Positions 195-16,014 of a stretch of 64,000 nucleotides of DNA are shown here, piece after piece. The DNA lies in the NCBI RefSeq assembly GCF_012910715.1, contig NZ_JABBHF010000006.1, positions 186,001 to 250,000 on the forward strand. Direction: 5' to 3'. The notes under the pieces were generated by a model that saw nothing but the letters and a program-made list of their open reading frames with translations, searched no databases and was not told the DNA's origin. The stretch comes from Flavivirga algicola. Lineage in GTDB: Bacteria > Bacteroidota > Bacteroidia > Flavobacteriales > Flavobacteriaceae. Each line of letters begins with the position of its first letter. The first letter of the stretch is position 1. The translations under genes were made by a program, and so were the position numbers.

Positions 195-1355
195 TTATTT
201 AAATAGATTATTATATTCTATTAATATGGCTTCCCAAACTCGTTTTCTTTCAAATTTTGAAATTATATTTGCTCTGGATTTAATGCCCATTTCCTTAGCT
301 TCTTCAAGGTTATCTAAGATATAATTCATCTTATCGTAAATAGCCATAGAATCTTTTACGGGTATAATGAATCCATGCTCTTTATTAGTGATTATTTCAT
401 TACATCCATTAATATTTGTAACAATAGCTGGCAAAGCCATAGCCCCTGCTTGCATGACGACATTAGGGAAACCTTCTCTATAGCTTGGAAATACTAATGC
501 ATTTGATATAGCAAAATAAGGACGTACATCATCTACCCATCCAGTTGAAATAATTTTTTTGTTAGTTTGAATGATTTCCATTGATTTAGGAAGAAGCGGG
601 TCTAATTCGTTTTCATACGTACCTACAAGCAATAGTTTTATGTTGTTATGTTCTTTACTTATTTTATCAAAAGCTATCATTAATTCATTAATACCTTTGT
701 CTGAAACAAGTCTACCAACATATACAAACACGAAATCATTATCACTAATATTTAAACTTTCTTTTAGTTTTCTTTTTTTGTTTTCATCATTAATCACTTT
801 AGAGTCAAAATAAGAAGTATCAATACCATTGGAACTCCCATTGGCTATAACTTTTAACTTACTTTCTTTTGCAAAGTTATGTTCAAGAACGATATCTTTT
901 AATCCGAATGAATTAGGATAAATTTTGGTTGCACAAGCATAAGTGATTTTTTCAACAGTATTAAGGATTATCCTTTTAACACCTGTTGCTTCTACCAATG
1001 GCAAACCAGCTATTGTATGTAACCTATGGGGTACTCTTGCAAATTTAGCAGCAAGCATAGATAATGTTCCTGCTTTTGGTGTGTGAGAGTGTACAATAAA
1101 TGGTTTCTCTTTTTTAAATAATTTATATAAGTTCCAAAGTGCATAGAGGTCTTTAAAAGGTGTGATTTTTCTGGTCATTTCTACGGCTAGCGTGGGCACT
1201 CCTTCATATTCGGATACATTATCCAGATCATTATCTTTTCCTTTGGATGAAACAGCTAAAACATCAAAATAATCCGTCATGTATCTTAACTGTCCTTGCA
1301 GTAAACCACTAAGCGATAATGGCACTGTGGTAATCCTAATTAATTTTTTTTTCAT
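195..1355 (-). CDS. GT4-family glycosyltransferase
   Basis: A 386-residue cytoplasmic GT-B glycosyltransferase that probably adds a sugar from a nucleotide-sugar donor to a lipid-linked surface-glycan intermediate. The N-terminal half has the GT4 acceptor-domain pattern (HSHTPKAGTLSMLAA near residue 90). The C-terminal half has the donor-site hallmarks VYVGRLVSDKG and YREGFPNVVMQAGAMALP. The second glutamate of the usual EX7E motif reads Q here, a variant I believe is common in this subfamily. There is no signal peptide or membrane segment. It lies 133 bp after the seven-GNAT array on the same strand and is the only sugar-transferring enzyme in the window, linking the locus to polysaccharide assembly. 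Donor and acceptor cannot be predicted. Confidence 0.9.
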   Translation of the reverse strand: MKKKLIRITTVPLSLSGLLQGQLRYMTDYFDVLAVSSKGKDNDLDNVSEYEGVPTLAVEMTRKITPFKDLYALWNLYKLFKKEKPFIVHSHTPKAGTLSMLAAKFARVPHRLHTIAGLPLVEATGVKRIILNTVEKITYACATKIYPNSFGLKDIVLEHNFAKESKLKVIANGSSNGIDTSYFDSKVINDENKKRKLKESLNISDNDFVFVYVGRLVSDKGINELMIAFDKISKEHNNIKLLLVGTYENELDPLLPKSMEIIQTNKKIISTGWVDDVRPYFAISNALVFPSYREGFPNVVMQAGAMALPAIVTNINGCNEIITNKEHGFIIPVKDSMAIYDKMNYILDNLEEAKEMGIKSRANIISKFERKRVWEAILIEYNNLFK

Positions 1356-1488: not shown

Positions 1489-2643
1489 TTACCTTACAAA
1501 TGATATACTTTGAAACTTATTTTTCCCTTTGATTAAAAAAGCATTATTTGTAGTATTTTTTAAAACAATTATATCACTATAATGATCCTTTGAATTGTAA
1601 ATAAAGCTGCAAATGTACTTTTTTAAAAACGAATAATTTTTAGAATTATGATCAATTTTTTTATGTGTTTCAAACATAAAAGTATCATTCAACTCAAAGG
1701 ATTCAATAATCACATTATTCTTATTGTTTTTATTCCTGCGAAAGAACATGTTAATTATTGGAATGATCTCGTTAATCTTTTTTGATTTTAAAAATTCTTT
1801 AATTAGTATTTTCTTTATATATATATGGACTTTAAAGCTAATTGTGTTACATGTTTTTTTGTAAAGTATTATGTGGTTATACCTATAAACATTATTGCTC
1901 CACCTTCGTTTATAATCCATACCGCCAACACCCATTTCAAAAAGAATATATCCATGGTTTGTGCACCATTCAATTTGCTTATAAATTTCTACATGCCCTA
2001 AGCCAAATTTTGAATAATTAATATCATAAGAAGATAAATAGCTGAATAAAACTTTGTCAAAATGATAATTTAACGAAATTTCTATTGGTTCATCTTTGTT
2101 ATAAATTACAAATAACGAGGCATTATTATTAATGATTTCTGAATAGGTGTTTTCTAGTAAATAATTCCATTCGTGTAAATTTTTATGTAATTCGTTACGT
2201 TCCTCAAACCTTTCTATTATCATATCATACAAAGCTTGCATAATAAAGTTATAATCTGTTTTTGAGATATCACCATAAAACATCTTATATTTAATATCGA
2301 AACAAGTTTCTAAGCGTCTTACATATCTCGTATAAATGTTTCTTTTTTTTGAATTAAATTGACGTTGCATATATGAGCCAATTGTATCTGAAGGATTAAG
2401 TAAAATAGAATATCCCCAATTATATTGGGGTATTATTTTTGTTTTGAAAGAAGCATCTCTAAGGTTTAATTTAAAATATTCAGGTATTAGTCTGTAAGAA
2501 TAGAAGGTTTTATTTTTTGAATTGTAATCAATTGCTTCATTATAAACCTTTAGGTTAAAATACTCAAAACTTTCATATAGTTGATTAATATCATCACTTT
2601 TGAATAATACTGGAAAGATTGGTATTCTGTTTTTTTTATTCAT
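1489..2643 (-). CDS. GNAT-fold (Acetyltransf_6/CelD-like) transferase, paralogue 1 with C-terminal module
   Basis: A 384-residue soluble protein, last of seven tandem paralogues. The central part matches the Acetyltransf_6 pattern: the YGDISKTDY segment, a helix ending RFEERNE, the core LFVIYNKDEPIEISLNY, then SSYDINYSKFGLGH and the family-defining FEMGVGGMDYKRRW. After the GNAT core there is an extension of roughly 100 residues ending FLIKGKNKFQSISF, shared with the next four paralogues. The family moves acyl or aminoacyl groups to amines, often on sugars or peptides. Here the substrate is inferred only from context: a surface glycan served by the carrier-protein and MBOAT genes upstream. 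No signal peptide, so cytoplasmic. Confidence 0.75.
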   Translation of the reverse strand: MNKKNRIPIFPVLFKSDDINQLYESFEYFNLKVYNEAIDYNSKNKTFYSYRLIPEYFKLNLRDASFKTKIIPQYNWGYSILLNPSDTIGSYMQRQFNSKKRNIYTRYVRRLETCFDIKYKMFYGDISKTDYNFIMQALYDMIIERFEERNELHKNLHEWNYLLENTYSEIINNNASLFVIYNKDEPIEISLNYHFDKVLFSYLSSYDINYSKFGLGHVEIYKQIEWCTNHGYILFEMGVGGMDYKRRWSNNVYRYNHIILYKKTCNTISFKVHIYIKKILIKEFLKSKKINEIIPIINMFFRRNKNNKNNVIIESFELNDTFMFETHKKIDHNSKNYSFLKKYICSFIYNSKDHYSDIIVLKNTTNNAFLIKGKNKFQSISFVR

Positions 2644-2656
2644 TTAAGTTTTAATA

Positions 2657-3865
2657 CTAATTTATAACTGTTAACTTCTGGTATTTTTTAGTGCCTTTAA
2701 AATAAAAGGTTTGGTCATCATCTAAATCGATATAAATTGTTACATCATGAACGAATTCTTGCGTTTTATGTAAAAAGTAATTCAGTGGTTTTATTAGGAA
2801 ACCATATGCTTCATTGTTTAAATCAATTAGCCTTAATTTTTCAAGCTCTGGAATTTTTGAAATATTATGATCTACATCAATCTTATTTTGAGTAGTTTTT
2901 ATATCCCCAGATTTAACAATTTTATATTTATACTTTGCATAGTAGCCGTATAGTTTATGGAAATTAATTTTTTTTAGAAAGTTAATTAGTTGATAGCGTG
3001 TTTTTAACTTTAATATTCTAAAATGAACGCGCATATAAGCCGTAATAGATTTAGAACTGAAAATTATATTTTCATTATAAATGTAACTTTCATTTACATA
3101 TTTTCTTTTATGTAAAAAATCGCCTCTTCCCATATCAAATAGTTTAAAGTTATTTTCATAGGCCCATTCCAGGTGATTTACCATATTTATGTGTCCCAAA
3201 TTAAACATCTGATAATCTATATTATAACAGCTATTCCAATGAAAAATGGTATCGCCATCAATAAAATTTAATGTGATGTTTATAGGCTTTTTTTTATAAT
3301 AAATACAAAATATAGCTGCTTGCTTTTTTAATAGCAAAGGATACATCATCTCCTGATATAATTTTAAATATGGTAATTCAAAATTAAACTCTTCTTTTTG
3401 TGAAAAACGTCGTTTTGTTATTAAAATTAATTCTTTAAAGATATTTTGATATTCTTCTTTTAATATATCACCATAAAAAATTTTATACTCTGGAGCAATA
3501 CATAAATCCAGTCGCTTTCTGTATCTTTTTAATTGCGATTTTCTAGGCCTACCTAATTTATTATTAAGATAATCCTCTAGGTTACTAAATGCTGTTAAAT
3601 TTATTAAATACCCTTGGTAAAGCGGAGCAGACAGAAGTTTTAAAGACATGTTTGTCTTATCAAGTTCTGTTAAAAAATAATCGGGAATGTCCTTTATATA
3701 ATATATCTTATTTTTAAATTTAGATATTGATTTTGCATTAGTTTCATAAACCGTAGTATTTAAAAGCGTATTCGTTATTTTTTTACAAAAAGCAGGAAGG
3801 CTTTTGTTTTTAAAAAAAAGATCTAAAAAAAAACTTAATTTAATATGTCTCACATTTAAACCCAT
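2657..3865 (-). CDS. GNAT-fold (Acetyltransf_6/CelD-like) transferase, paralogue 2 with C-terminal module
   Basis: At 402 residues this is the longest of the seven paralogues. The shared core is clear: YQGYLINL, the basic segment RKSQLKRYRKRLD, FYGDILKEEY, AIFCIYYKKKPINITLNF, CYNIDYQMFNLGH and the terminal signature FDMGRGDFLHKRKY. The usual YK.KW is altered to HKRKY, and YSKF to YQMF, so its substrate pocket may differ. It ends with the common C-terminal module (FYFKGTKKYQKLTV). It is 13 bp from paralogue 1 and 21 bp from paralogue 3, so co-transcription is likely. Function beyond probable acyl or aminoacyl transfer is unknown. Confidence 0.72.
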   Translation of the reverse strand: MGLNVRHIKLSFFLDLFFKNKSLPAFCKKITNTLLNTTVYETNAKSISKFKNKIYYIKDIPDYFLTELDKTNMSLKLLSAPLYQGYLINLTAFSNLEDYLNNKLGRPRKSQLKRYRKRLDLCIAPEYKIFYGDILKEEYQNIFKELILITKRRFSQKEEFNFELPYLKLYQEMMYPLLLKKQAAIFCIYYKKKPINITLNFIDGDTIFHWNSCYNIDYQMFNLGHINMVNHLEWAYENNFKLFDMGRGDFLHKRKYVNESYIYNENIIFSSKSITAYMRVHFRILKLKTRYQLINFLKKINFHKLYGYYAKYKYKIVKSGDIKTTQNKIDVDHNISKIPELEKLRLIDLNNEAYGFLIKPLNYFLHKTQEFVHDVTIYIDLDDDQTFYFKGTKKYQKLTVIN

Positions 3866-3886
3866 TTATTCTGTTTGGTATAAATC

Positions 3887-5065
3887 CTAATGATTTATTG
3901 TTAGTAATTGGCTTTTGTTTTTAGCTTTTAAAAGAAACTTATTTGAAGTACCGCTTAGTTTACCAATAGTTACATTATCTAAAGACGTATTTGCTAAAAA
4001 TAAAAAATTATAAACGGGTTTTCTTAAAAAGATATATTGATTGTCTAAGTTAATATCTATTTCAAATATTTGATCTGTGATTTTTGCATTATTATCTATA
4101 AGTATGGTTGTGGCTTTTTTATTTTTAAAAAAGGTAGTTATTCCAAATAAATACCTTTTCAAATCTTTATATTTTGTATCTAAATTGTGTTTTTTTAAAA
4201 ACCTGTAGCATTTGTATTTAATAGTTTCTTTTATAGTAATATAATAACTGATTAAAGTAAGTTTTATAGAGTTGGAATTGTAAATTATATAAATGTAATA
4301 ATCATGTTTTTTGGTTGCCCATTTTGATTTATAATAGTCATATCCCTTTAAAAGATCATAAATTTCAAAGTTGTTATCAATACACCATTCTATATTTTTT
4401 AGCATATCAATTGATCCTAAATGAAATTTTGAGTAATCTACATCATAACCACTTATAATATAGTAAGCTAGTTTTTTTTTACACATATTTACTCTAATGC
4501 TTATAGGCTTTTCGTTATCGTAAATCACAAATAAACATGCTTCTTTTTTCAATATCATATCATATACAACATCATGATATCCTTTTAAATGCTGTAATTC
4601 ATAATTCTTTTCTTGTTTTTCGGCAAACCGCCTTATTAATAAGTCTTTTAAAACAATAAATAGTCTATCATACTCTTCTTTGGTTATATTGCCATAATAC
4701 GAAACATATTTAATTTTAAAACAAGATTTTAACCTATTTTCATAACGCCTGAAATTTGACCTGCTTTTAGTAGTAAAATTATTTTGTAAATATTCCTGTA
4801 TATCTTTAAAAGGGGCAAGTTCTACTAAATGCCCTTTAAGAGTCTTAGTTTTGTTAATGACAATATTTTTTGCTTGCTGAAATAGCTCAATATCTACATA
4901 ATCGGAGACATCCTTAAATATTAATACTTGTTTATTTAAATCTAATTCAGAATCAATGTTTTTATTATAATATACATTTTTTTGATAAATAACTTTATTG
5001 CAAATAGGAGGTAGGCTATTCTCTGTGAAAGCTTTTAAAAATGTTATGTTATTAGCTTTATCCAA
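3887..5065 (-). CDS. GNAT-fold (Acetyltransf_6/CelD-like) transferase, paralogue 3 with C-terminal module
   Basis: A 392-residue paralogue with KGHLVELAPF, SRSNFRRYENRL, YYGNITKEEYD, LFVIYDNEKPISIRVN, SGYDVDYSKFHLGS and YDLLKGYDYYKSKW. These are the same ordered blocks as its neighbours and match the Acetyltransf_6 layout, with the DLxxGxxxYKxxW signature near residue 260. The C-terminal module ends FLLKAKNKSQLLTI. Only two bases separate it from paralogue 4, indicating tight co-translation. It is clearly diverged from paralogues 1 and 2, so the array is not a recent simple amplification. Cytoplasmic; substrate unknown. Confidence 0.73.
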   Translation of the reverse strand: MDKANNITFLKAFTENSLPPICNKVIYQKNVYYNKNIDSELDLNKQVLIFKDVSDYVDIELFQQAKNIVINKTKTLKGHLVELAPFKDIQEYLQNNFTTKSRSNFRRYENRLKSCFKIKYVSYYGNITKEEYDRLFIVLKDLLIRRFAEKQEKNYELQHLKGYHDVVYDMILKKEACLFVIYDNEKPISIRVNMCKKKLAYYIISGYDVDYSKFHLGSIDMLKNIEWCIDNNFEIYDLLKGYDYYKSKWATKKHDYYIYIIYNSNSIKLTLISYYITIKETIKYKCYRFLKKHNLDTKYKDLKRYLFGITTFFKNKKATTILIDNNAKITDQIFEIDINLDNQYIFLRKPVYNFLFLANTSLDNVTIGKLSGTSNKFLLKAKNKSQLLTINH

Positions 5066-5067
5066 AA

Positions 5068-6240
5068 TTATTGAAACGTTATTTTTTGGACATTTTTTTC
5101 TCCTTTTATCATATAAGTGTTTAATTTGTTTTTTAATTGAAATACCTCAATAGTACTTAATTGTTCTTTATTATGATATAAAAAAGTATATACTGGCCTT
5201 TTTAAGAAACTTAAAGAGTCATCATTTAAATCAATTTTAATTAATTGTTTGTCTAAAACCATTTGAACATTGTTGGTGACTATTATATTTTGCGAATCAT
5301 CTTCAACTTTATTTTTGTATAAAAAATCCAAAAATTTATGATACATAATATCTACATTTAATTTTTTCAGAATATTAATTGTTTTATAAAAAATATGAGT
5401 TTTAAAAATTATTATGTGAGCAATAATAGTTGCTAATAAAGATTTTGAATTATAAATTACATGCTTTTGATAATAAAATTCGGCATCAATCAGCTTATTT
5501 TTATAGGGGTAATTACCTTTTAATAAATCATAGACTTCAATACTGTTTTCAAAGCACCAACGAAGTTGTTGTAGAAAATTAATGAAACCGATAGAAAACT
5601 TAGAATAATCAATATCATAACTTTTTACATAGCCATAAATAGTTTTGTTTCTTAATAAATTCAGGTAAAAACTAATAGGTTTATTATCATTATAGATAAC
5701 AAACAAAGCGGCCTTTTTACTGTTAATTAGAGGGTATGCAATTTCATGATATATTTCCCAACGAAACAAGTCATGGTTTTCTATTTTCTTTTCCAAAAAT
5801 CTTTTCTGTAGCATTTTTTGAAAAGTATCAAAAAGGTAATCATAGTTCTCTTTTGATATATGACCATAATAACACTTATATTCAATATTAAAACAAGCTT
5901 CCAGTTTATTTTGATAAAGTCTAAATCTTTTAGGAGTTTTAAATTTAGTTTTTAAATAGTTTTGTGTGTCAGTATAATTTTCAGGAAAAATTAATGAACC
6001 TTTAAAAGTGTTAATATGTTTAGATTTCCAGTCTTTTTTGGTAATGTACCCTTTTAAATAACTGGGAAAATCGTAAAGGCAATATAAATTGCTTTTACTT
6101 TCATTTTTTAACCCTTTACTGTTATAAATAGTATTGCCAGAAAAATTATTAACAACTTTATTATAAATAGGGAAGGGCCTTTCTCTTTCAAGAAAAGCAT
6201 TTAATACATTATAATATTCTGGTTTTACTTTTTTTAGCAT
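5068..6240 (-). CDS. GNAT-fold (Acetyltransf_6/CelD-like) transferase, paralogue 4 with C-terminal module
   Basis: A 390-residue paralogue that is visibly the closest relative of the next gene. Both begin MLKK and share FLER, the YCxYDFP block, KSKxINTxKGSL, the YYGxISKxxY block, VIYNDNKPIS/VIFNNNKPIS and YDLLKGNYPYKNK against FDLLKGSYPYKIK. Their C-terminal modules end in the near-identical KGEKNVQKITF, and the DNA encoding it (5086-5107 and 6275-6296 regions) is nearly unchanged. This points to a more recent duplication than the rest of the array. The usual tryptophan after YK is replaced by leucine in both (YKxKLID). Soluble; probable surface-glycan acyl or aminoacyl transferase by context. 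Confidence 0.73.
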   Translation of the reverse strand: MLKKVKPEYYNVLNAFLERERPFPIYNKVVNNFSGNTIYNSKGLKNESKSNLYCLYDFPSYLKGYITKKDWKSKHINTFKGSLIFPENYTDTQNYLKTKFKTPKRFRLYQNKLEACFNIEYKCYYGHISKENYDYLFDTFQKMLQKRFLEKKIENHDLFRWEIYHEIAYPLINSKKAALFVIYNDNKPISFYLNLLRNKTIYGYVKSYDIDYSKFSIGFINFLQQLRWCFENSIEVYDLLKGNYPYKNKLIDAEFYYQKHVIYNSKSLLATIIAHIIIFKTHIFYKTINILKKLNVDIMYHKFLDFLYKNKVEDDSQNIIVTNNVQMVLDKQLIKIDLNDDSLSFLKRPVYTFLYHNKEQLSTIEVFQLKNKLNTYMIKGEKNVQKITFQ

Positions 6241-6257
6241 TTTTAGATTTTTATATA

Positions 6258-7442
6258 CTATCGAAAAGTGATTTTTTGGACATTTTTTTCTCCTTTTATA
6301 AAAAAGGAATCATCCTCGTTTTTATACTTGAATAGCTTTATATTGTTTATTGACTCTTGATTAGCGTATAAAAAATTGAATATCGTTCTTTTTAAAAAAG
6401 AGTAAGCTTCGTTATTCAAATCAATTTCTCTAAGCTCATCGTCTAGTGCTGTTTTAACATTATTATTAATAATGATTTTTTGTAAATCATTTTCAACCTT
6501 GCTTAATTCTTTATTTCTGTATTTGTAGTTTATATATTTATAGTAAATAACATTAACATTTATTTTTTTTAACAGTTTAACTAAAAAGTAAAAAGCTTTT
6601 GTTTTGGCTATTATTGCTTTTGCAGATATCGTTGTTAGAAATGAATTTGAGTTGTATACTACATGCTTTTGAAAGTCGTATTTAGTATCAATCAATTTTA
6701 TTTTATAAGGATAGCTACCTTTTAATAAATCGAAAATTTCAATCCCATTGTTGTAGCACCAATCCAGTTGTTTTATAAAATCTGTAAAACCAATGTAGAA
6801 TTTTGAATAATCGATATCATAAGTTCTAAGGTAACCATAAATAGTATTTCCTCTCACAAAATTCAAACAAATACTAATTGGTTTATTGTTATTAAAAATA
6901 ACGAATAAAACGGCTTCTTTACTATTAATTAATGGATATGCGATTTCATAATAAATATCCCAACGAGATAAATCGTAATTCTGGATTTTTTTTTCTATAA
7001 AACGTTTTTTTGTCATTTTGTGAAATGCTTCAAAAAGATATTCGTATTCATCTTTTGAAATATTTCCATAATAAGCTTTATATTCAATATTAAAACAAGT
7101 CTCTAACCTTTTTTGGTATGTTCTAAATTTAGACCTTCTACCAGCACTAAACTTGCTTTTTAAATACGCTTCAACATTTTTGTAGTTTTTTAGGAGAATT
7201 AATGATCCCTTATAGGTGTTTATGCTTTTTGATTTCCATCCTTTTTTTACAATGGTCCCTTCAAAATAACCGGGAAAATCATAAATACAATATAAATTAT
7301 TATTAGCTTCATATTCTGAGTTCTTATAAATTAAAGATCCAGAAATTTTATTTGTTATTTTATTGTAAACAGGCAAAGCCTCTTTTCTTTCAAGAAAAGT
7401 GCTTAAAACATCTAAAGATTCTGGGGTTATTTTTTTTAACAT
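6258..7442 (-). CDS. GNAT-fold (Acetyltransf_6/CelD-like) transferase, paralogue 5 with C-terminal module
   Basis: A 394-residue sister of paralogue 4 with the same block order: an N-terminal region with ERKEALPVYNKI, KGSLILLKNY, SKFRTYQKRLETCFNIEYKAYYG, VLFVIFNNNKPISICLN, TYDIDYSKFYIGF and FDLLKGSYPYKIK. The C-terminal module carries DLNNEAYSFLKR and closes with FIKGEKNVQKITF. The matching DLNNEAY segment also appears in paralogue 2, showing the module is a real shared domain. It lies 17 bp upstream of paralogue 4. Substrate unknown. Confidence 0.73.
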   Translation of the reverse strand: MLKKITPESLDVLSTFLERKEALPVYNKITNKISGSLIYKNSEYEANNNLYCIYDFPGYFEGTIVKKGWKSKSINTYKGSLILLKNYKNVEAYLKSKFSAGRRSKFRTYQKRLETCFNIEYKAYYGNISKDEYEYLFEAFHKMTKKRFIEKKIQNYDLSRWDIYYEIAYPLINSKEAVLFVIFNNNKPISICLNFVRGNTIYGYLRTYDIDYSKFYIGFTDFIKQLDWCYNNGIEIFDLLKGSYPYKIKLIDTKYDFQKHVVYNSNSFLTTISAKAIIAKTKAFYFLVKLLKKINVNVIYYKYINYKYRNKELSKVENDLQKIIINNNVKTALDDELREIDLNNEAYSFLKRTIFNFLYANQESINNIKLFKYKNEDDSFFIKGEKNVQKITFR

Positions 7443-7465
7443 TTTAATGTTATTTTGCTGTACTC

Positions 7466-8407
7466 TTATTTATAATTAAAAAGGAGTTTGTCAAAATTAA
7501 TCAACGTGCCAATAATATTCTTGTCTCTTAAGAACTGAATAAGCTTTAGTTCCTGCACTATAATTCGTGAACAGATTCTAGATAATATAGATTTTTTGCT
7601 ATAAAAAAGATGATACATGAAAGTATATTTATGATTGCACCATTTCTCTTTGTAATATGTCTTTCCCATTGATAAATCGAATACATTTATGTTATTTTTT
7701 ATAAGCCACTCAAGATGAATTAGCATACTAATATCTCCCATGTTATATTTTGAATAATTTGTATCAAAGGTTTGAATGTGGCTAAATACAATATCATTTA
7801 AATGATAATTTAAGGTAATAGCAATGGGGGTTATATCATTATAAACAACGTGCAAAGACGCTTTTTTGTCTAAAATTTTCTGATAAGTTGTACTTTGTAA
7901 CTCCTTCCAAGTCGATAGATATCGGTTATGCATTTTTTTTTCATTAAATCTATTTTTTAATAGTTTGTAAAATGTCTTAAAAATAGTATCGTATTCATTT
8001 TTTTCAATAAATCCATGGTGGAATTCCGAAAAGATTTTATGGTTTTTATAGAGCTTGTTTTTTTTAGAATTTAAGTTTTTTTTATTCCTCTTGCTTAAAT
8101 TTTTAGTTATATAATCACTGGCATCTTTGTACCCAACTGTATTTATCAAATAGCCACTGTATTGAGGGATTACCTTATGTACTATGTCTGGACTTAATTC
8201 ATTTAATTTGAATTGAATATAATTGGGGACATCTTTGATCATTTTGATTTTTTTGAAATTAAAATCAGCAATATCTTTTTTAACCTTAAGACTTTTTTGA
8301 GATAAACTGTTTATAGCATAATTTGAAAAGAAAATACTAATTTTAGTTTCTATAAATAAGTCAAAAATTAAATGATTACTTTGAGAAGAAAATAGTTTAC
8401 TTAACAT
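7466..8407 (-). CDS. GNAT-fold (Acetyltransf_6/CelD-like) transferase, paralogue 6, short form
   Basis: At 313 residues this paralogue has the GNAT core but lacks the C-terminal module carried by paralogues 1 to 5. The core blocks are YSGYLINTVGY, NKKNLNSKKNKLYKNH, FHHGFIEKNEYD, LHVVYNDITPIAITLNYH, TFDTNYSKYNMGD and FDLSMGKTYYKEKW, a good match to the Acetyltransf_6 signature. The YYG found before the second block in other copies is FHHG here. It ends soon after a basic segment, as paralogue 7 does, so the short forms lie at the promoter-proximal end of the array and the long forms at the distal end. Confidence 0.72.
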   Translation of the reverse strand: MLSKLFSSQSNHLIFDLFIETKISIFFSNYAINSLSQKSLKVKKDIADFNFKKIKMIKDVPNYIQFKLNELSPDIVHKVIPQYSGYLINTVGYKDASDYITKNLSKRNKKNLNSKKNKLYKNHKIFSEFHHGFIEKNEYDTIFKTFYKLLKNRFNEKKMHNRYLSTWKELQSTTYQKILDKKASLHVVYNDITPIAITLNYHLNDIVFSHIQTFDTNYSKYNMGDISMLIHLEWLIKNNINVFDLSMGKTYYKEKWCNHKYTFMYHLFYSKKSILSRICSRIIVQELKLIQFLRDKNIIGTLINFDKLLFNYK

Positions 8408-8472
8408 TAAAACTAATTTACTCTTTAATTTTTTTGTTTCAAAAAAATCTCTTTAAAAGGAAAACATAGCAG

Positions 8473-9474
8473 TTATTTTGCATATTTTTTTTTATTTAAG
8501 ATAAAAGATAATTCATGAATAAGATGGGTTAGGTTATTCTTTCTAAGAAACAATTTGAATTTGAAAAACTGCTTGTATAAGAATGCAATTAATTTAGATT
8601 TAAATGATTTCTTGTCGTAAAATATATGGTATTCCAACATATAATTTTTATTTGCCCATCTCTTTTTATATTCAAAATATCCTTTAGAAAAATCCAAGGC
8701 CGAAATATTATTTTTAAAACACCATTCAAGCTGTTTCATTAAACTTACTGTACCTAATCTGTATTTTGAATAGTTTATATCAAAGGTTCTTATAACATCA
8801 ATCATATTGGTTTTTGAAAAATTTAGCAATGTTATAGCTATAGGAGTACTTCTATTGTAAACAACAAAAAGACCAGCCTGTTTTTTCTTCATCATTGGAA
8901 ATGTTACTTTTTTATAAAATTCCCATTCAACAGGATTAAGATTATTGTTTACTGTTTTTTTTTCAAGAAACCGCTTTTTTAGAAGGAAATTAAAACTTGT
9001 AAAGAGTGATTCGTAGTCATCATTAGTTATATCATCTAAATACATTTTATAACTAATTCCGTAATCAGATTCGAGCTTCTTTTTATAACTATTAAATTTA
9101 TAACGACTTTTCTTACTAATAACATCCAACATATATTTATGAAGATTATCGTAATTATTTAAATCACATATAAATCCAGGGTATTGCCTTATTTTATAGC
9201 AGCTTAATCCATTAACTGCTTTAGGAATATCCGTATTAAAATCCTGTACATCGTATACAATAAATGTTTTGCCTTTATAATCATTGGAAATTTTATCTGA
9301 TAAATTATACGAAATCCCTTTAGTATTAGTAGCTCCTGTATTAAAGTAAACTGGAATTTTTTTGTGTTTTACAAAAGTAATCATATCAATAAAGCTAAAC
9401 TCATTAGCTGTTAATCCAGCGTTAAAATGATTTAGCCAAATTGTTTTAAATATCTTTTGTAGATATGGATTCAC
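8473..9474 (-). CDS. GNAT-fold (Acetyltransf_6/CelD-like) transferase, paralogue 7, short form
   Basis: A 333-residue paralogue without the C-terminal module and the first of the seven to be transcribed. It shows YPGFICDLNNYDN, SRYKFNSYKKKLES, MYLDDITNDDYESLF, LFVVYNRSTPIAITLLNF, TFDINYSKYRLGT and LDFSKGYFEYKKRW. The last block is close to the canonical Acetyltransf_6 motif. It begins one base after the upstream SGNH gene stops (stop at 9476-9478, start at 9474), which ties the GNAT array to the MBOAT/SGNH genes as one transcription unit. Probably cytoplasmic; substrate not known. Confidence 0.74.
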   Translation of the reverse strand: MNPYLQKIFKTIWLNHFNAGLTANEFSFIDMITFVKHKKIPVYFNTGATNTKGISYNLSDKISNDYKGKTFIVYDVQDFNTDIPKAVNGLSCYKIRQYPGFICDLNNYDNLHKYMLDVISKKSRYKFNSYKKKLESDYGISYKMYLDDITNDDYESLFTSFNFLLKKRFLEKKTVNNNLNPVEWEFYKKVTFPMMKKKQAGLFVVYNRSTPIAITLLNFSKTNMIDVIRTFDINYSKYRLGTVSLMKQLEWCFKNNISALDFSKGYFEYKKRWANKNYMLEYHIFYDKKSFKSKLIAFLYKQFFKFKLFLRKNNLTHLIHELSFILNKKKYAK

Positions 9475-9475
9475 T

Positions 9476-10426
9476 TTAATTTATAGATTTTTTTGTTTTT
9501 AAATAATTCTTAATATCTATACTTAGCAGCTTAGTGAATTTTTTTGCACTTTCAGATTCTAAGTGAGAACCGTCATAAGCTATAAATTCATTTGATCGTT
9601 TTGAATAGTTAAAATATGGAATACTATGTTTTTTAGAAATGCTATCAAATTGAGAGTCAAAATTTTTCCAATTATCATTTTCAAATTTTACTACATCTAA
9701 ATCTGAAGGCATTCTTATTACAAAAACCTTTCCTTTGGTTTTAAGGTATTCTATAGTTTTAACAAAATATTTAATTCTATATTTTGAAATCCTCAGTTTT
9801 TTTATCTCACGATTATAATAATCTGTGGTTTGTTCTTTCCAGAAAGCCATATCTTTACTATCATTCTCTTTAGCTAAAGCAATTTCATTCCACCCATTTG
9901 GATGAGACATAAAATAATCAAGATTCTCTTTGTTAAAAAGAGAATTATATAGGGGTTGTTGATATTTTGAAATGATATAATCGAAATTAGGTTTTGAGGT
10001 TAAATTATCAATACTACCAATAATTGCCTCTTTATCTAAATCATAAATTTTGTCATCTTTAATTTCAGCACGAACTGTGAAATTCCCTGGGCTGATCGAG
10101 ACTATAAAAAGTCCATTAATGTTATTAGTACTCAGTTTTTTATCGATACCTTGTAAATATACTTCACCGAAAGCCGATTGATGTGCGTTCATTGAAAAAT
10201 TCACTATAGGTTTATCATAGTTGCTAAGCTCTTCTTCTAGAATGAATGGGTCTATTCCCTGATCTGCTCTGGATAAACCGATAATTAAACTTCCAGCATC
10301 CTGATTTACTTTATTATAGAATTGATCTACATATCCCTTAGAAAGTTTATATACAAAAAAAAAGTATATTCCTGCAAAGAGTATAAAATACAACAATAAT
10401 TGAACAATAAACTTTTTTAATGACAT
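9476..10426 (-). CDS. Membrane-anchored SGNH-like protein (DltD/AlgX-type partner), copy 2
   Basis: A 316-residue protein with one N-terminal membrane segment (residues 6-26) and a periplasmic SGNH-like domain. Block I reads IIGLSRADQG with Ser52, and block V reads YDGSHLESES with Asp285 and His288, so a Ser-Asp-His triad can be formed. Such proteins partner MBOAT transferases and finish acyl or aminoacyl transfer outside the membrane. I chose the ATG at 10426 rather than the upstream in-frame ATG at 10474. It starts just after the preceding MBOAT stop, whereas the longer version would overlap it and add 16 residues before the signal anchor. It is related to the 11889-12809 gene in layout. 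Confidence 0.78.
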   Translation of the reverse strand: MSLKKFIVQLLLYFILFAGIYFFFVYKLSKGYVDQFYNKVNQDAGSLIIGLSRADQGIDPFILEEELSNYDKPIVNFSMNAHQSAFGEVYLQGIDKKLSTNNINGLFIVSISPGNFTVRAEIKDDKIYDLDKEAIIGSIDNLTSKPNFDYIISKYQQPLYNSLFNKENLDYFMSHPNGWNEIALAKENDSKDMAFWKEQTTDYYNREIKKLRISKYRIKYFVKTIEYLKTKGKVFVIRMPSDLDVVKFENDNWKNFDSQFDSISKKHSIPYFNYSKRSNEFIAYDGSHLESESAKKFTKLLSIDIKNYLKTKKSIN

Positions 10427-10430
10427 ATCG

Positions 10431-11876
10431 TTAAAATTGAAAATATATAAAAGTGTTTTGCCTATTAATAGCAAATAAAACTATGATTAAAATATAGCCT
10501 ACATACATACTGTATCTAACATATTTTGTACGATGTGTGACCAATTCGTATACCTTACTATTTCCTTTGTAATAATGTATAGTTTGTACAATTATTATTA
10601 GTGTTATACTTATAAATAACTCTAAATAGTTATTTAGAATATTAATATGTAGACTACCAAAATTAAACATGTTTTTATAATATGTTAAAGCATGTGTTAT
10701 TGAAGGTGATCTAAAAAATATTAACGATGAAAACAAATAACCTATAACTATAAACCAACCGCAAAAAGAAACAAATTTCTTTGGAAAATTAAGAAAGTTG
10801 AAAATCTTATTCCTTGTTTTAAGTGTTCCAATTTCTATAATTAACAATAACGCATTTAATAAGCTCCAAATCACAAAAGTCCAATTTGCCCCATGCCAAA
10901 GACCATTTACAATAAATACAATTAATACGGCTGTTACTCTACTAAATTTGTATTTTCTAACCAAAGGGGCATAGATATAGTCTCTTAGCCAATTTGTTAA
11001 AGATATATGCCACCTTTGCCAGAATTGCGATGTAGAAGTTGAAAAAATCGGACGATTAAAATTGGCCATTAAATCGTAACCCAATGTTTTTGCCGCTCCG
11101 ATTGCAATAGATACATATGCAGAAAAATCGTAATAAATTTGAAAACTGAAAAATATAAAACCTAAAACTAATGATAGAGCATGTGGAGAATCTGGGTTAT
11201 CGAACGCTGCATCAACATACAAGCCTAACCTATCTGCTACAACAACTTTTAAGAAGAACCCCCATGCCATAAGTATAAGTCCTTTTTTTATATCGGGTAT
11301 GTTAAGATTTATTTTTCGTTTAAGTTGGGGGATTAATCTTGAAGCCCTTTCAATAGGGCCAGCTACTAGCTGAGGAAAAAATGAGACGTACAATGCAAAA
11401 ACCCCAAAGTGCTTTTCTGGCAGAACCTTACCTTTGTATACATCTATTGTATAGCTTAAAGTTTGAAAAGTATAAAAACTAATACCTACAGGTAATAATA
11501 TTTGATTAAAATTGTAAGAACCAGCAGTATTTCCACTTTCTATAATATTTAAGTCAAAGAATTTTAATAAACCTTCTATAGATGACGTAAAAAAGAACAA
11601 GTATTTAAAAACAAAGAGTATTCCTATATTGGTGCATATACTTACATATAGAAGTACTTTTTTTATCTTATTGGATGAATCTGGCATTTTTAATGCACAG
11701 AAGTAATCCACTATAGTTGATATTAACAGTAGAATTATCAGTGATGGTTCATGCGCCATGTAAAAAAAGTAACTAGCCAATAAAAGCCATAACCACCTAT
11801 ATTTGTGAGGTAACGTATAAAACCCAATAATTACTATCGGAAAAAAAAGTAAGAATTCAAATGAGTTAAATAACAT
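10431..11876 (-). CDS. MBOAT-family membrane O-acyltransferase (AlgI/DltB-like), copy 2
   Basis: A 481-residue polytopic membrane protein. The start MLFNSFEFLLFFP, LLPVGISFYTFQTLSYTIDVY (about 127-147), VAGPIERASR (171-180) and FWQRWHISLTNWLRDYIYAPL with His290 are hallmark MBOAT/AlgI segments. The invariant catalytic histidine is in GLWHGANWTF (His328). The family takes an activated acyl group from the cytoplasmic side and passes it across the membrane to a polysaccharide or teichoic acid. Placed between two SGNH genes, it forms the second of two MBOAT-SGNH pairs. The donor is inferred to be the carrier protein encoded at 14275-14514. Confidence 0.93.
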   Translation of the reverse strand: MLFNSFEFLLFFPIVIIGFYTLPHKYRWLWLLLASYFFYMAHEPSLIILLLISTIVDYFCALKMPDSSNKIKKVLLYVSICTNIGILFVFKYLFFFTSSIEGLLKFFDLNIIESGNTAGSYNFNQILLPVGISFYTFQTLSYTIDVYKGKVLPEKHFGVFALYVSFFPQLVAGPIERASRLIPQLKRKINLNIPDIKKGLILMAWGFFLKVVVADRLGLYVDAAFDNPDSPHALSLVLGFIFFSFQIYYDFSAYVSIAIGAAKTLGYDLMANFNRPIFSTSTSQFWQRWHISLTNWLRDYIYAPLVRKYKFSRVTAVLIVFIVNGLWHGANWTFVIWSLLNALLLIIEIGTLKTRNKIFNFLNFPKKFVSFCGWFIVIGYLFSSLIFFRSPSITHALTYYKNMFNFGSLHINILNNYLELFISITLIIIVQTIHYYKGNSKVYELVTHRTKYVRYSMYVGYILIIVLFAINRQNTFIYFQF

Positions 11877-11888
11877 TGAATATTTGAT

Positions 11889-12809
11889 TTAGTTTTTAAC
11901 TATGGAGTCACAAAGTGCTTTTGTGAACGCCTTACCGCCATGCTTATCTATATGATGACCATCATAGGTGTCATATTGAAGTTCTCCAGAATTATTAAAA
12001 TCAAAATAAGGAGTTTCATTAATGTTTGCAATAGAATCAACTATAGTATTTAATTTTGGATAATAAGAGTTTTCAAGATCTAAAAATTCTTTACTAATAG
12101 GCATTCTTATTAAGTAAACTTTACCATACTTTTTTAATTCTTCAATGAGGGTATTGAAACTGTTAACTCTGAAATCTGATATTTTATACATATCTCTATC
12201 ATCAAGAAATAAATCTATTTGGTGCTTTCTCCATGTATCAAAAACTAAAGTATCTGTTGGCAGATTAGATTCCTCTAGCCAGCCATCTTTATGAGTTTCA
12301 GAATTTTTTCTAAATAAAGCCTTGAAGTGGAAATAAGCCATATTTTTAAAAAAATATTCATAATTTGGATTGATATCTACAAAGCTCATATTGTGAGGTG
12401 GCTGATTTGCTTCTCTAAATTCACCTAAATCATTCCTAAACCCATCCTTTGAAGTTAAAAAATCTGGTGTTATAGATATAATAAATAATCCGTTAGTGGC
12501 TGTTTTATCTACTTTTTTGAGGATACTTTTAGTGTATAAAGGACCTGAAATAGCCTGTGCTCCCGTAAAACTATAATTTAATATAGGAAGGTCATATTGC
12601 TTTTTATTATTATTAAAATATTGATTAATTACACTGGGTTGGATTCCCTGAAAACTCCTTGAATCACCAATTATTATTGATTTAACTTTTGGGGTAGTAA
12701 ATTTTGGATAAAAATAATCAACATTACCTCCATAATTCATCAAAATCGCAGTAATTATTCCAAAGCAAACAACAAAAAAAACGCTTAGTTTAATTAAAAG
12801 TAGTTTCAT
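11889..12809 (-). CDS. Membrane-anchored SGNH-like protein (DltD/AlgX-type partner), copy 1
   Basis: A 306-residue protein with a single N-terminal membrane segment (residues 4-25) and a periplasmic SGNH-like domain. Block I is IIGDSRSFQG (Ser50) and block V is YDGHHIDKHGG (Asp283, His286), the canonical GDS and DxxH arrangement. The middle YLIRMPIS resembles VFVIRMPS in the second SGNH protein, so the two are paralogues that diverged well before the present. Six bases separate it from the upstream MBOAT gene. The inferred role is accepting or transferring the acyl or aminoacyl group on the outer face of the inner membrane. Confidence 0.8.
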   Translation of the reverse strand: MKLLLIKLSVFFVVCFGIITAILMNYGGNVDYFYPKFTTPKVKSIIIGDSRSFQGIQPSVINQYFNNNKKQYDLPILNYSFTGAQAISGPLYTKSILKKVDKTATNGLFIISITPDFLTSKDGFRNDLGEFREANQPPHNMSFVDINPNYEYFFKNMAYFHFKALFRKNSETHKDGWLEESNLPTDTLVFDTWRKHQIDLFLDDRDMYKISDFRVNSFNTLIEELKKYGKVYLIRMPISKEFLDLENSYYPKLNTIVDSIANINETPYFDFNNSGELQYDTYDGHHIDKHGGKAFTKALCDSIVKN

Positions 12810-12815
12810 AATTAT

Positions 12816-14264
12816 TTAGAATTGAAAGTAAATGAATGTTTCTGAGCTTTTTCCAAAAAATAATATTAACAAGAATAGAAAGATATAAGAACTCCATCTT
12901 AAAAAAATATTATAATTTTTAATTTCAAAGTCATGCTTTTTTTCTCGATTATTCCATTCAATAAAAAAGAATATAAAAAGTAAAAATATGGTTATCATAT
13001 AATTAGAACTAAACATTCCTTGAGGGATTGAAAAAATGTCATAAGAAAAAATGGAAACAATGTAGTTTATAGCTTCTTTAATACTATTAGCCCTAAAAAA
13101 GACATCGGTTAGCATGATTAAAACAAACAATAACAACATCTTAATGAATTCAATAATTGAAGGAAAAAGTTTTCCTTTCGCAACAATTTCTGAAGAATTC
13201 ATTTTACCAGAATAAACTAATGGAATGAAATAAATTCCGTGTAATAATCCGTAAAAAACAAAAGTCCAATTTGCACCATGCCAAAATCCTACTAGGACAA
13301 ATGTTGCAATAATTGAGATAATTAATCCATTTTTCTGATATCTCCTTAGGCTAAATGAAAGCGGCGTAAATACATAATCCATCATCCATGTAGTTAAGGA
13401 TATATGCCATTTTCTCCAAAAATCACTGATGTTGGTTGAAAAGAAAGGAGTTGAAAAATTACGCATTAATTGAATACCAAATAATTTTGATACACCAATC
13501 GCCATATTTGAGTATCCAGAAAAATCTGCGTATAGCTGTATCGCATAGAAAAAGGCTCCTAGAATGAGTGTGCTACCAGTTTGCCCCTCAAAATTATCAA
13601 AAATTGGATTAGCTATAGAAGCACAATTTTCCGCAATAACAATTTTAGCAAATAACCCCCATAATATCTGTCTGAGCCCATCAACAAAAATCTCATAAGA
13701 AAATTCTCTCCTTTCTTGGATTTGAGGCATCATTTTAGATGCTCTTTCAATTGGTCCAGAAAGGATTTTGGGGAAATAAGCAACAAAAAGAGAAAATTCT
13801 AAGAAATTGTGACTTGGATCTATTTCTTCGTTATAAACATCAATTAAATACCCTAGTGTTTGAAAAGTAAAAAAACTAATCCCTAAAGGAAGTAGAATAG
13901 CAAGAGTTGTATAACTTGAAGTTATTCCAAAGACATTTACTAGCTCCACAAAACTTTCATAAAAAAAGTTGAAGTACTTAAAATATAGTAAAAGCCCAAC
14001 ATTAAATACAAGTCCTAAATATAAAAATCGCCGTTGCTTGGTTTCATCATCAACTTCTTTCCTTATTTTTAAAGCCAAATAATAGTTTATTATAATGCTA
14101 GCTATTAGTAAAAATAAGAATCGCCAATCTGCCCAGGCATAAAAAAAAACACTAGAGGCTAGTAATAATACATTTTGAGCTACCTTGTTTTTTCTAAAAA
14201 AACTCCAATAAAGGAAAAGAACAGGTAGGACAAACACTACAAACTTTATAGAATTAAAAACCAA
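12816..14264 (-). CDS. MBOAT-family membrane O-acyltransferase (AlgI/DltB-like), copy 1
   Basis: A 482-residue polytopic protein with the full MBOAT signature set: MVFNSIKFVVF, LLPLGISFFTFQTLGYLIDVY (124-144), LSGPIERASKM (168-178), DFWRKWHISLTTWMMDYVFTP with His287, and GFWHGANWTF with the catalytic His329. It starts ten bases after the carrier-protein gene, the position DltB-type proteins hold relative to their carrier in many operons, so it is the better candidate for direct use of the charged carrier. It is only distantly like the second MBOAT, suggesting two acceptor sites or two acyl groups rather than gene dosage. Confidence 0.93.
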   Translation of the reverse strand: MVFNSIKFVVFVLPVLFLYWSFFRKNKVAQNVLLLASSVFFYAWADWRFLFLLIASIIINYYLALKIRKEVDDETKQRRFLYLGLVFNVGLLLYFKYFNFFYESFVELVNVFGITSSYTTLAILLPLGISFFTFQTLGYLIDVYNEEIDPSHNFLEFSLFVAYFPKILSGPIERASKMMPQIQERREFSYEIFVDGLRQILWGLFAKIVIAENCASIANPIFDNFEGQTGSTLILGAFFYAIQLYADFSGYSNMAIGVSKLFGIQLMRNFSTPFFSTNISDFWRKWHISLTTWMMDYVFTPLSFSLRRYQKNGLIISIIATFVLVGFWHGANWTFVFYGLLHGIYFIPLVYSGKMNSSEIVAKGKLFPSIIEFIKMLLLFVLIMLTDVFFRANSIKEAINYIVSIFSYDIFSIPQGMFSSNYMITIFLLFIFFFIEWNNREKKHDFEIKNYNIFLRWSSYIFLFLLILFFGKSSETFIYFQF

Positions 14265-14274
14265 AATAAATAAT

Positions 14275-14514
14275 TTAAATTTTACTTTGAATTACAGAGA
14301 CTAAGGATCCCATGTTCTTCAGCTTATTTAAATCTCTTAGTTTAAATTTAATATTAAAAGCTTCTTCAATTTTTGTTATTATCATCATATGCGATAACGA
14401 ATCCCATCCATCAACATCTTTGGCTGTTAATTCGTCATGCATTTCAAAATTATTATGCTCTAATGTAGACTCTAAGACACCACTTATAGTTTCTTTTATC
14501 GTTAAGGTTTCCAT
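14275..14514 (-). CDS. Stand-alone acyl/aminoacyl carrier protein
   Basis: A 79-residue carrier-protein fold. The phosphopantetheine attachment site is Ser39 in DGWDSLSHMMIITKIEEAF, followed by the typical helix III region with FKLRDLNKLKN. It is acidic and has no fused catalytic domain. It lies 12 bases after the adenylation gene and 10 bases before an MBOAT gene, which is the DltA-DltC-DltB logic. The cargo is inferred to be an amino acid or small carboxylate loaded by the adjacent ligase. A phosphopantetheinyl transferase is not present in the window and would have to be supplied elsewhere. The usual fatty-acid AcpP has a different recognition helix, so this is a dedicated carrier. Confidence 0.92.
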   Translation of the reverse strand: METLTIKETISGVLESTLEHNNFEMHDELTAKDVDGWDSLSHMMIITKIEEAFNIKFKLRDLNKLKNMGSLVSVIQSKI

Positions 14515-14526
14515 GGTTATTTATAT

Positions 14527-16014
14527 TTATTCAGTAAAAAGTTTTGTTAATTTATTTCGATCTGTTTTTCCATTGGAATTTAGAGGAAAACTGCCAACAA
14601 ATTTAATTTGTGTTGGAATCATGTATTTAGGTAGCTTATCATTTAATTTTTTCAACAATTCTTTAGTGTCAATTGGTTCTGATTCTATTACCAAACCTAT
14701 TTCAGTATTTTTAATATTATTGGTAAAAGCTACTGCTACAGTATTTATCTTGTTTAAGGAAGCCTTTGCATGAAACTCTATTTCGGATAATTCAACTCTA
14801 AAACCTTGAATTTTAGCCTGAAAATCAACCCTCCCCAAATATAAAACATCACCATCTTTATCAGCACGGCATAAATCACCCGTTCTATAAAACCTTGTTT
14901 CCTTTCCTTTATAATATTTATTGAAAAATACTTGCTTGTTTTTTTCTTCGTTTCTCCAATAGCCAGGTGTTAATTGTAAACCACTTAAGCATAATTCTCC
15001 TTCTTTTCCTGTTTCAACTTCATTATTGTCATCATCTACTATAATAGTTGATGTATTTATCATGTCTTTACCAATTGTTAAAACCCCATTATGTGTTTTA
15101 TTTTCACCATTTCTTTTGTAAGTGTAATCCATGCAATAAATCGTGCACTCAGTAGGGCCATAAACATTGGCAATTGTTGCATTTGGAATACATTTACTCC
15201 ATTCTTCTGTGACATCCAAAGGCAAAGCTTCCCCACAGAATAAACTAAATTTCATTGATGGGCAATTAATTTCGTCAAAATAAGGTCTTAAATAATGTAA
15301 TATAGAAGGAACCATTAGTGAATAAGTTAATTCATGGTCTTCCATTAATTCAAAAATATAACTATACTTAATCTCATCTTTTGGAATAGTATAAACACAG
15401 GCACCTTTAAGTAAAGGGGCTAGATATGAAACAACAGATAAGTCGAATGTTAATTCAAACATTTGCAAACATCTATCATTTTCTGTAATTGTATAATCTA
15501 AAGCCCATTGAGCCTCCATAAAACTAGAGAGATTTCCAAAAGTTATTGGTACACCTTTGGGAGTTCCCGTTGTTCCCGAAGTAAAGAATATATAGGCAAA
15601 ATCTTCATTTGATATTTCAGAAGGGTTTAAATCGATATCTGAGTTACTAAGGTTTTCCGTCATTATCGAATTAAAATTGTTAAAAACCTTCCTAGATGAA
15701 GAATCGAGAATTGTAACAATATCTGCTTGCTTTATTACTGCCAAATTCCTGTCATCTGGAAAATCTGGATTTAACGGAACGTAAGCTTTACCTTCCATCC
15801 ATAATGCAATTATTGAAGCATATGTATAAATATCATCATTAGTGATTAATCCAATAAAGCATTCCGTACTCTTTACATTATTCTTTAAAGCAAATCTTAT
15901 ATTAGATATAATTTGGGCTAAATCTTCGTACGTATAATATGTATTACTAATGTAAAAAGCATTGTTTGTATAATTAGTAATAATAGACGACTGTATTTCT
16001 AAAGTTAAGTTCAT
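14527..16014 (-). CDS. Free-standing amino-acid-type adenylation enzyme (DltA-like AMP-forming ligase)
   Basis: A 495-residue ANL-superfamily adenylating enzyme with no fused carrier or condensation domain. Motifs in order: FFTSGTTGTPKG (P-loop, 143-154), FDLSVV (190-195), NVYGPTEC (283-290), FYRTGDL (375-381), GRVDFQAKIQGFRVE (394-408) and NGKTDR with the C-terminal lysine at 483. Asp191 in FDLS aligns with the residue that binds the substrate amino group in amino-acid-activating domains, including DltA, so the substrate is more likely an amino acid than a fatty acid. It is the first gene of the minus-strand unit and should charge the carrier protein that follows. The exact amino acid cannot be read with confidence. 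Confidence 0.9.
   Translation of the reverse strand: MNLTLEIQSSIITNYTNNAFYISNTYYTYEDLAQIISNIRFALKNNVKSTECFIGLITNDDIYTYASIIALWMEGKAYVPLNPDFPDDRNLAVIKQADIVTILDSSSRKVFNNFNSIMTENLSNSDIDLNPSEISNEDFAYIFFTSGTTGTPKGVPITFGNLSSFMEAQWALDYTITENDRCLQMFELTFDLSVVSYLAPLLKGACVYTIPKDEIKYSYIFELMEDHELTYSLMVPSILHYLRPYFDEINCPSMKFSLFCGEALPLDVTEEWSKCIPNATIANVYGPTECTIYCMDYTYKRNGENKTHNGVLTIGKDMINTSTIIVDDDNNEVETGKEGELCLSGLQLTPGYWRNEEKNKQVFFNKYYKGKETRFYRTGDLCRADKDGDVLYLGRVDFQAKIQGFRVELSEIEFHAKASLNKINTVAVAFTNNIKNTEIGLVIESEPIDTKELLKKLNDKLPKYMIPTQIKFVGSFPLNSNGKTDRNKLTKLFTE

Follow-up and report, generated by a model that had tools for sequence, protein, structure and literature searches.

In the Dlt pathway (DltA, DltC, DltB, DltD and DltX), which D-alanylates teichoic acids, an adenylation enzyme, a carrier, an MBOAT and an SGNH protein are encoded in one string. 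The non-Dlt MBOAT/SGNH pathways have no carrier, and MBOATs with a fused FxYxxF motif are fed by acyl-CoA, PatA using acetyl-CoA, according to excerpts of PMC12148441 (2025), which also cover the chemistry of the motif. We analysed a window of 64,000 nucleotides from Flavivirga algicola (contig C34, positions 186001-250000, of a 5.0 Mb genome), in which an adenylation enzyme (A), a carrier (C) and an MBOAT-SGNH pair are followed, all on the minus strand, by a second such pair and seven GNATs (G7 to G1). All thirteen genes had been named in a preliminary description and are present as it described them, with intergenic distances of -44 to 65 bp. The stretch consists of two separately inherited modules inside one polysaccharide gene cluster that reaches beyond the window, upstream. 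In gene content and motifs, module 1 (A-C-MBOAT1-SGNH1, 11889-16014) is a Dlt-PatAB hybrid, combining a loader and a carrier with an MBOAT that has its own C-terminal acyl shuttle; the other, module 3, holds the second pair, the GNATs and a GT4 glycosyltransferase (MBOAT2-SGNH2-G7..G1-GT4).

Module 1 shares with the Dlt pathway the single string of four genes and four pocket residues of DltA, but it belongs to the Bacteroidota, lies in a polysaccharide cluster and has the motif fused to MBOAT1. With PatA-PatB, which O-acetylates peptidoglycan, and other fused-motif MBOAT-SGNH pairs it has in common an SGNH partner and the FxYxxF motif at the MBOAT C-terminus after extra hydrophobic segments; unlike them, it has a loader and a carrier, the carrier gene standing beside MBOAT1 in all 21 loci compared below. 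Exosortase-associated exopolysaccharide loci contain an acyl-CoA ligase (TIGR03098), a carrier and a FemAB protein (TIGR03019) together. Our cluster is similar in having a ligase, a carrier and a FemAB-like protein in a Gram-negative exopolysaccharide locus, but A reaches 165.3 bits on TIGR03098 (cut-off 592.35) and FADg, a FemAB-like fusion protein of the upstream cluster, 34.5 bits on TIGR03019 (cut-off 260.35). The Bordetella dra locus, likened here by description, is another Dlt-like modification (D-alanine, outer membrane) in a Gram-negative (excerpts of PMC4448142). As for the GNATs, the FemABX transferases (FemX; VlmA, PacB, DhpH, Orf11) resemble them in the double GNAT fold predicted for G5 and probably also in the catalytic lysine (PMC12945691, in part), whereas G1-G7 form an ordered array in a Gram-negative polysaccharide locus, have an extra C-terminal part in G1-G5 and differ at the level of Pfam family. 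HfsK of the Caulobacter holdfast, also compared by description, is a tandem-GNAT, FemX-like protein thought to modify exopolysaccharide, but it is a single gene and a c-di-GMP effector, whereas here an array lies beside MBOAT-SGNH pairs (excerpts of PMC5362036). Each part thus has a described relative, and the earlier statement that no such combination is known stands only for the Dlt-PatAB hybrid and the ordered GNAT array, of which searches limited to an open-access library found no description.

Module 1 joins Dlt-type loading genes to a fused shuttle motif

Our comparisons are based on 47 loci from one scan of genomes, for which six peptide patterns taken from A of the window served as seeds. 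Stretches of six further family genomes and four of genomes already scanned were also annotated, with the cluster proteins as references; some samples overlap (L055 is G070, L074 is G019 and L092 is the genome of G044). All 21 loci whose A is at least 60% identical keep the order A-C-MBOAT1-SGNH1; they come from Flavivirga, Gaetbulibacter, Flaviramulus, Aquimarina, a Chryseobacterium metagenome-assembled genome and related genomes, and A of Flavivirga amylovorans is 93% identical to that of the window. This constant company supports the earlier proposal of a Dlt-like route in a Gram-negative, here within a polysaccharide cluster, with an adenylation enzyme and a carrier supplying an MBOAT-SGNH pair. 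The carrier follows A directly in 17 of the loci, a second A in three (L060, L063 and L064) and a GNAT in one (L071). Nine plasmid records with carrier matches were all below 60% identity.

A (14527..16014, minus strand) is a free-standing amino-acid adenylation enzyme and putative loader (PF00501; TIGR01733, 308.8 bits), followed after 12 bp by a stand-alone carrier with a DSL serine (14275..14514, minus; PF00550) and after another 10 bp by MBOAT1 (12816..14264, minus; PF03062). The DltB model TIGR04091 covers residues 8-385 of the 482 residues of MBOAT1 with 176.3 bits, below the cut-off of 375; then come hydrophobic segments at 417-435 and 453-471 and finally the hexapeptide FIYFQF (12819..12836, minus), the candidate fused acyl shuttle. 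An FxYxxF terminus is found in 74 of 75 complete distinct MBOAT open reading frames (ORFs), the exception being the DltB of a control dlt operon, and in only one of 1338 other ORFs; nine of the 84 distinct MBOAT ORFs were cut by the locus end and left out of this count. MBOAT1 forms a carrier-linked clade of its own, and MBOAT2 falls in a separate clade without carriers. SGNH1 (11889..12809, minus) starts 6 bp further on. Its structure model has the SGNH fold, with PatB as the first Foldseek match, and the catalytic residues S50, D283 and H286 (Ser, Asp-x-x-His) are present in 27 of 27 sequences, which makes it a candidate acyl transferase to the polymer.

The control operon, from the Eubacterium phylum (L107), has C at 4742-4993, D at 4990-6195, X at 6098-6310, A at 6205-8007 and B at 7970-9373, where C, D and X were assigned by size, place and motif. 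Its DltB scores 445.3 bits on TIGR04091 and lacks the motif, while its 70-aa DltX-like ORF ends in FIYNGF. No separate DltX lies between the genes of module 1; the rest of the genome was not searched for one. A Dlt-like working of module 1 is supported without making it a member of Dlt proper, and its probable role is the export of a small amino acid to the sugar coat by means of a swinging tyrosine arm. In Aquimarina, its neighbours are a Polysacc_synt flippase-type protein, an EpsG-type protein, a pyruvyl transferase and a UDP-sugar dehydrogenase.

Candidate cargo and relatives of the adenylation enzyme

The specificity pocket of A, in positions whose numbering we take to be that of GrsA, reads D-L-V-L-L-C-V-I-Y-K, and that of the control DltA D-L-L-I-L-C-L-V-A-K (positions placed by motif). 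D235, L236, L299 and C301 are common to both. All module-1 enzymes keep D235, C301, V322 and K517, with variation at the other pocket positions. D235 suggests an alpha-amino acid, and L299 and C301 a small one; both of these are shared with DltA, in which the pocket cysteine presumably has a role. Altogether the pocket suggests glycine or alanine/D-alanine as the cargo. The best PDB sequence match of A is LgrA (its two domains summed); by single domains the scores are 183.5 bits for the second domain of LgrA, 182.6 for GrsA and 175.4 for DltA. The second LgrA domain (module 2), which we take to accept glycine, has the pocket D-I-A-N-L-C-I-I-Y-K when read by eye.

Two identities for A were considered and rejected. 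It is not DltA proper, as it reaches 266.9 bits on the DltA model TIGR01734 (cut-off 559.85). Nor does it seem to be a fragment of a nonribosomal peptide synthetase (NRPS), because in a tree of 45 hand-picked rows the 16 A enzymes of Bacteroidota that are linked to carriers group in a single clade (100/100), separate from the multidomain NRPS; the only DltA row of that tree sits on a long branch, its place unsure.

A separate module with an ordered row of GNATs

Module 3 begins with MBOAT2 (10431..11876, minus; PF03062, 95.7 bits), which also carries the C-terminal motif FIYFQF (10434..10451, minus) and scores 130.3 bits on TIGR04091, and SGNH2 (9476..10474, minus), with conserved Ser, Asp and His. 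Then follow, all on the minus strand, G7 (8473..9474), G6 (7466..8407), G5 (6258..7442), G4 (5068..6240), G3 (3887..5065), G2 (2657..3865) and G1 (1489..2643), and after the array the GT4 glycosyltransferase (195..1355, minus; PF00534, 114.3 bits), which adjoins G1 in the module-3 genomes. This order is kept in seven genomes (the stretch of G072 starts at SGNH2). The two modules lie more than 10 kb apart in G019 and G070, and an A1-type adenylation enzyme is absent from G072 and G006. G120, whose genome gave no adenylation match at E 1e-40, has MBOAT2-SGNH2-G6-G5-G3-G2-G1, with no carrier called beside MBOAT2. Of 149 family genomes, 37 carry relatives of G5, frequently more than one in tandem, and three carry an A1-type enzyme (at least 80%). 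Conversely, among 20 module-1 genomes searched (L066 not among them), five have six to eight G5 relatives, 14 have one and one has none.

The array thus occurs without A1 in three genomes (G072, G006 and G120), and at most one G5 relative accompanies module 1 in 15 of 20. On these grounds we reject the thirteen genes as one conserved system, and the earlier assignment of the GNATs and of MBOAT2-SGNH2 to the Dlt-like system is not supported; a link between the modules may nevertheless exist where they adjoin. The GNAT row is older than module 1 and separate from it, ordered and with positions that are one-to-one orthologous. The possibility that the GNATs are recent tandem copies was rejected, with the exception of G4, which is a duplicate of G5 in three genomes.

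All seven GNATs pass the cut-off of PF13480 (Acetyltransf_6), which is a family name and not a function. The predicted structure of G5 is a double GNAT fold, and the enzymes that match it best across its two domains depend on aminoacyl-tRNA; K247 is invariant, being lysine in 58 of 58 sequences. It may correspond to K305 of FemX (a number counted along the 1ne9 alignment row) by two alignment steps, the first of moderate probability. Helix 94-115 of G5 is basic. G1-G5 carry about 100 C-terminal residues past the double GNAT (285-394 in G5), while G6 and G7 are short forms without them. In predicted shape, G1-G7 resemble amino-acid transferases that use tRNA and not ordinary acetyltransferases.

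A second adenylation-carrier pair with another partner

Upstream of the window lies another adenylation enzyme, A2, which shares 52% identity with A and has its own carrier C2; A2-C2-NMTg was read there at L006:10477-13336; NMTg is a protein of about 360 aa with weak GNAT matches only. We counted the partners of 63 A genes in 59 loci (47 + 12, repeats kept), taking genes as near when on the same strand, at most three genes before or four after, and within less than 3.5 kb. A1-type enzymes have a carrier and an MBOAT near in 26 of 26 cases and NMTg in none, whereas A2-type enzymes (at least 60%) have NMTg near in seven of seven and an MBOAT in none. Two A2 rows (L006 and L038) were scored as carrier-less because ORF calling missed the carrier, although C2 of L006 is readable. 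Among 26 intermediate enzymes NMTg is near in 19 and an MBOAT in six, three of these having both, and one of four distant enzymes has an MBOAT near. The model used for NMTg derives from members of this same set. By hhalign, an ORF of about 350 aa after A-C in seven rumen-type Bacteroidales loci belongs to the NMTg family (probability 100, E 6.5e-84). Sets of A-C-NMTg were found in many rumen-type Bacteroidales loci.

The A-C pair therefore has two kinds of partner, and A2-C2 goes with the acyltransferase NMTg, not with an MBOAT. The pockets of the A2-type (DFVTSGYVYK) and the rumen-type (DVQAITFIYK) both differ from the module-1 type, which is carried by L072 and L073 with an MBOAT near; a counter-example is L095, which has the rumen code and yet an MBOAT near. 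Because both partners and pockets differ, it is probable that a cytoplasmic transferase receives the second activated amino acid. A D-alanine amide and N-acetyl-alanyl amino sugars are reported from polysaccharides of marine Gram-negatives in excerpts of PMC3210612, in which we saw no amino-acid-substituted polysaccharide from relatives of this organism.

Proposed working and alternative explanations

From gene content, synteny, motifs, conserved residues, two predicted folds and the separability of the modules we infer the chemical steps, cargo, acceptors and donors as follows. A would activate a small amino acid (glycine or alanine/D-alanine) and load it onto C; MBOAT1 would move it across the membrane and attach it to the FIYFQF tyrosine at its own C-terminus, from which the serine of SGNH1 would take it and esterify a hydroxyl of the polysaccharide. 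MBOAT2-SGNH2 is most likely an ordinary O-acylation pair fed by acyl-CoA, and G1-G7 would transfer amino acids, with aminoacyl-tRNA as the most likely donor, to amino groups of a lipid-linked sugar in the cytoplasm. We cautiously favour this arrangement, i.e. two decoration modules side by side in one polysaccharide cluster, one for amino-acid export and the other combining an O-acylation pair with FemX-like GNATs.

Several results weigh against it. The 21 module-1 loci stem from a single scan seeded with A peptides and include near-copies, the two modules do adjoin in three genomes (the window's own, G150 and G151), and A is about equally near to NRPS domains and to DltA, so that its sequence does not establish D-alanine. 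For the GNATs, the link by hhalign is modest (probability 78.6, E 1.7e-5, 80 columns), the GNAT profile gave no matches to PDB sequences at E 0.1, and none of G1-G7 matches PF02388 (Pfam FemAB), although the neighbours FemG (41.1) and FADg (30.4) do. The pyrophosphate-binding loop R/Q-x-x-G-x-G/A is found in none of 58 sequences, a test made void by the positive control L071, which lacks it too. The basic charge of the helix is unspecific (background mean 0.5, sd 3.4, maximum 11.0, n = 30), with values of +6.7 in the formyltransferase, +5.0 in NMTg and -0.6 in FemG, whose family has a clear FemX match. Given the double GNAT fold and the missing PF02388 match, G1-G7 are therefore to be regarded as FemX-like in fold and not as members of the family. 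FemG itself gave no matches in a single-sequence search, and the FemAB family had no match in 16 genomes of another phylum, where the controls were without match as well.

It is a real, if lesser, possibility that the GNATs are acyl-CoA-dependent N-acyltransferases acting on several cytoplasmic sugar amines, FemX-like in fold only, with module 1 working as proposed; the two-domain matches of G5 to aminoacyl-tRNA-dependent enzymes, its universally kept lysine and its basic helix all speak against this. It seems unlikely that A-C serves a cytoplasmic acyltransferase while MBOAT1-SGNH1 uses acetyl-CoA as a mere neighbour. The pairing of A2-C2 with NMTg and the acyl-CoA feeding of other fused-motif MBOATs (PMC12148441, in part) would fit such an explanation, but A, C, MBOAT1 and SGNH1 are inseparable in the 21 loci, MBOAT1 has a clade of its own, and it is the nearest to DltB of five such MBOATs scored (176.3 versus 130.3 to 149.1 bits). 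A single integrated system, as put forward in the preliminary description, is very improbable; in such a system the GNATs would act ahead of MBOAT1-mediated export, either on the amino group of the cargo while it is bound to the carrier or on the same acceptor. The adjoining modules are in its favour, and a PF00583 GNAT between A and C in two distant phyla (L071:1482-2147 and the Eubacterium locus L098:11439-12242) indicates that tailoring of the cargo by a GNAT may exist elsewhere; however, those GNATs belong to another family, and both the array without A1 and the 15 module-1 genomes with one or no G5 relative stand against it.

Neighbouring genes and related cassettes

The polysaccharide cluster runs about 14 kb further upstream of the window, as seen in L006. 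After GT4, which is still within the window, it encodes a PaaK-like protein, two PF02397 sugar-phosphate transferases and a formyltransferase, and further on NMTg, A2, C2, two PglD-like proteins, FADg (an oxidoreductase fused to a FemAB-like domain), FemG (a FemAB-like protein) and a third MBOAT-SGNH pair. Fusions of an FAD/NAD(P)-binding domain to a FemAB-like GNAT were seen at L006:5784-8453, L044:16463-19999 and L046:7617-11327, with longer relatives of 1179 and 1236 aa in G072 and G006. A sugar-transfer-associated ATP-grasp protein (PF14397, 347 aa) lies between GT4 and the PaaK-like gene at L044:9058-10101; ORFs of the same size are found at this place in G006 and G150, and none in the window's genome. 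Divergent from the operon, the window encodes a beta-helix protein (PF13229, 16518-18488), homologues of which adjoin MBOAT2 or A in several related clusters.

Carrier-fed cassettes with other loaders were also found. In Flaviramulus (L041:15609-19942, also L055) an FkbH-type protein (TIGR01686, 293.9 bits), a 77-aa carrier, an MBOAT ending in FIYFQF and an SGNH protein come directly after A-C-MBOAT1-SGNH1, which looks like carrier-fed export with another loader, its cargo being glyceryl by family name; FkbH_N was detected in one of 149 family genomes (G070), in a search whose controls gave no match. Two tandem adenylation enzymes with differing pockets precede one carrier in L060, L063 and L064 (about 10001-13259). 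The GNATs of L071 and L098 would fit N-acylation of a carrier-bound amino acid.

For MBOATs related to that of L098, we surveyed 20 of 30 matches (in 27 of 148 genomes) over at most 1.5 kb upstream, calling carriers by size and a D/N-S motif. Among the 20 loci, L098 included, 18 have FxYxxF, 12 an upstream carrier-like ORF, 12 an A enzyme and ten both; two of the MBOATs end in PIYAGF. As ten of these loci have both loader and carrier, the Dlt-PatAB hybrid is not confined to the Bacteroidota but extends beyond them, and the cassette looks like a general device that sends chosen acyl groups to surface polymers.

Implications

Module 1 would unite the two described ways of feeding MBOAT-SGNH machines, the carrier loading of Dlt and the fused tyrosine shuttle of PatA, and its loader differs between genomes, being one adenylation enzyme, two in tandem, an FkbH-type protein or an enzyme with an extra GNAT before the carrier. 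A more speculative and rather unlikely extension is that G7-G1 form an assembly line that is fed by tRNA and needs neither ribosome nor NRPS, with each enzyme adding one set amino acid to build a defined short peptide on a sugar amine of the surface polysaccharide, and with module 1 adding aminoacyl esters after export. If this were true, the conserved order of the GNATs and their one-to-one orthology would reflect the peptide sequence or that of the acceptor sites. In any case, with an old, ordered, FemX-like set in a Gram-negative polysaccharide locus, the use of aminoacyl-tRNA on surface glycans outside peptidoglycan becomes testable.

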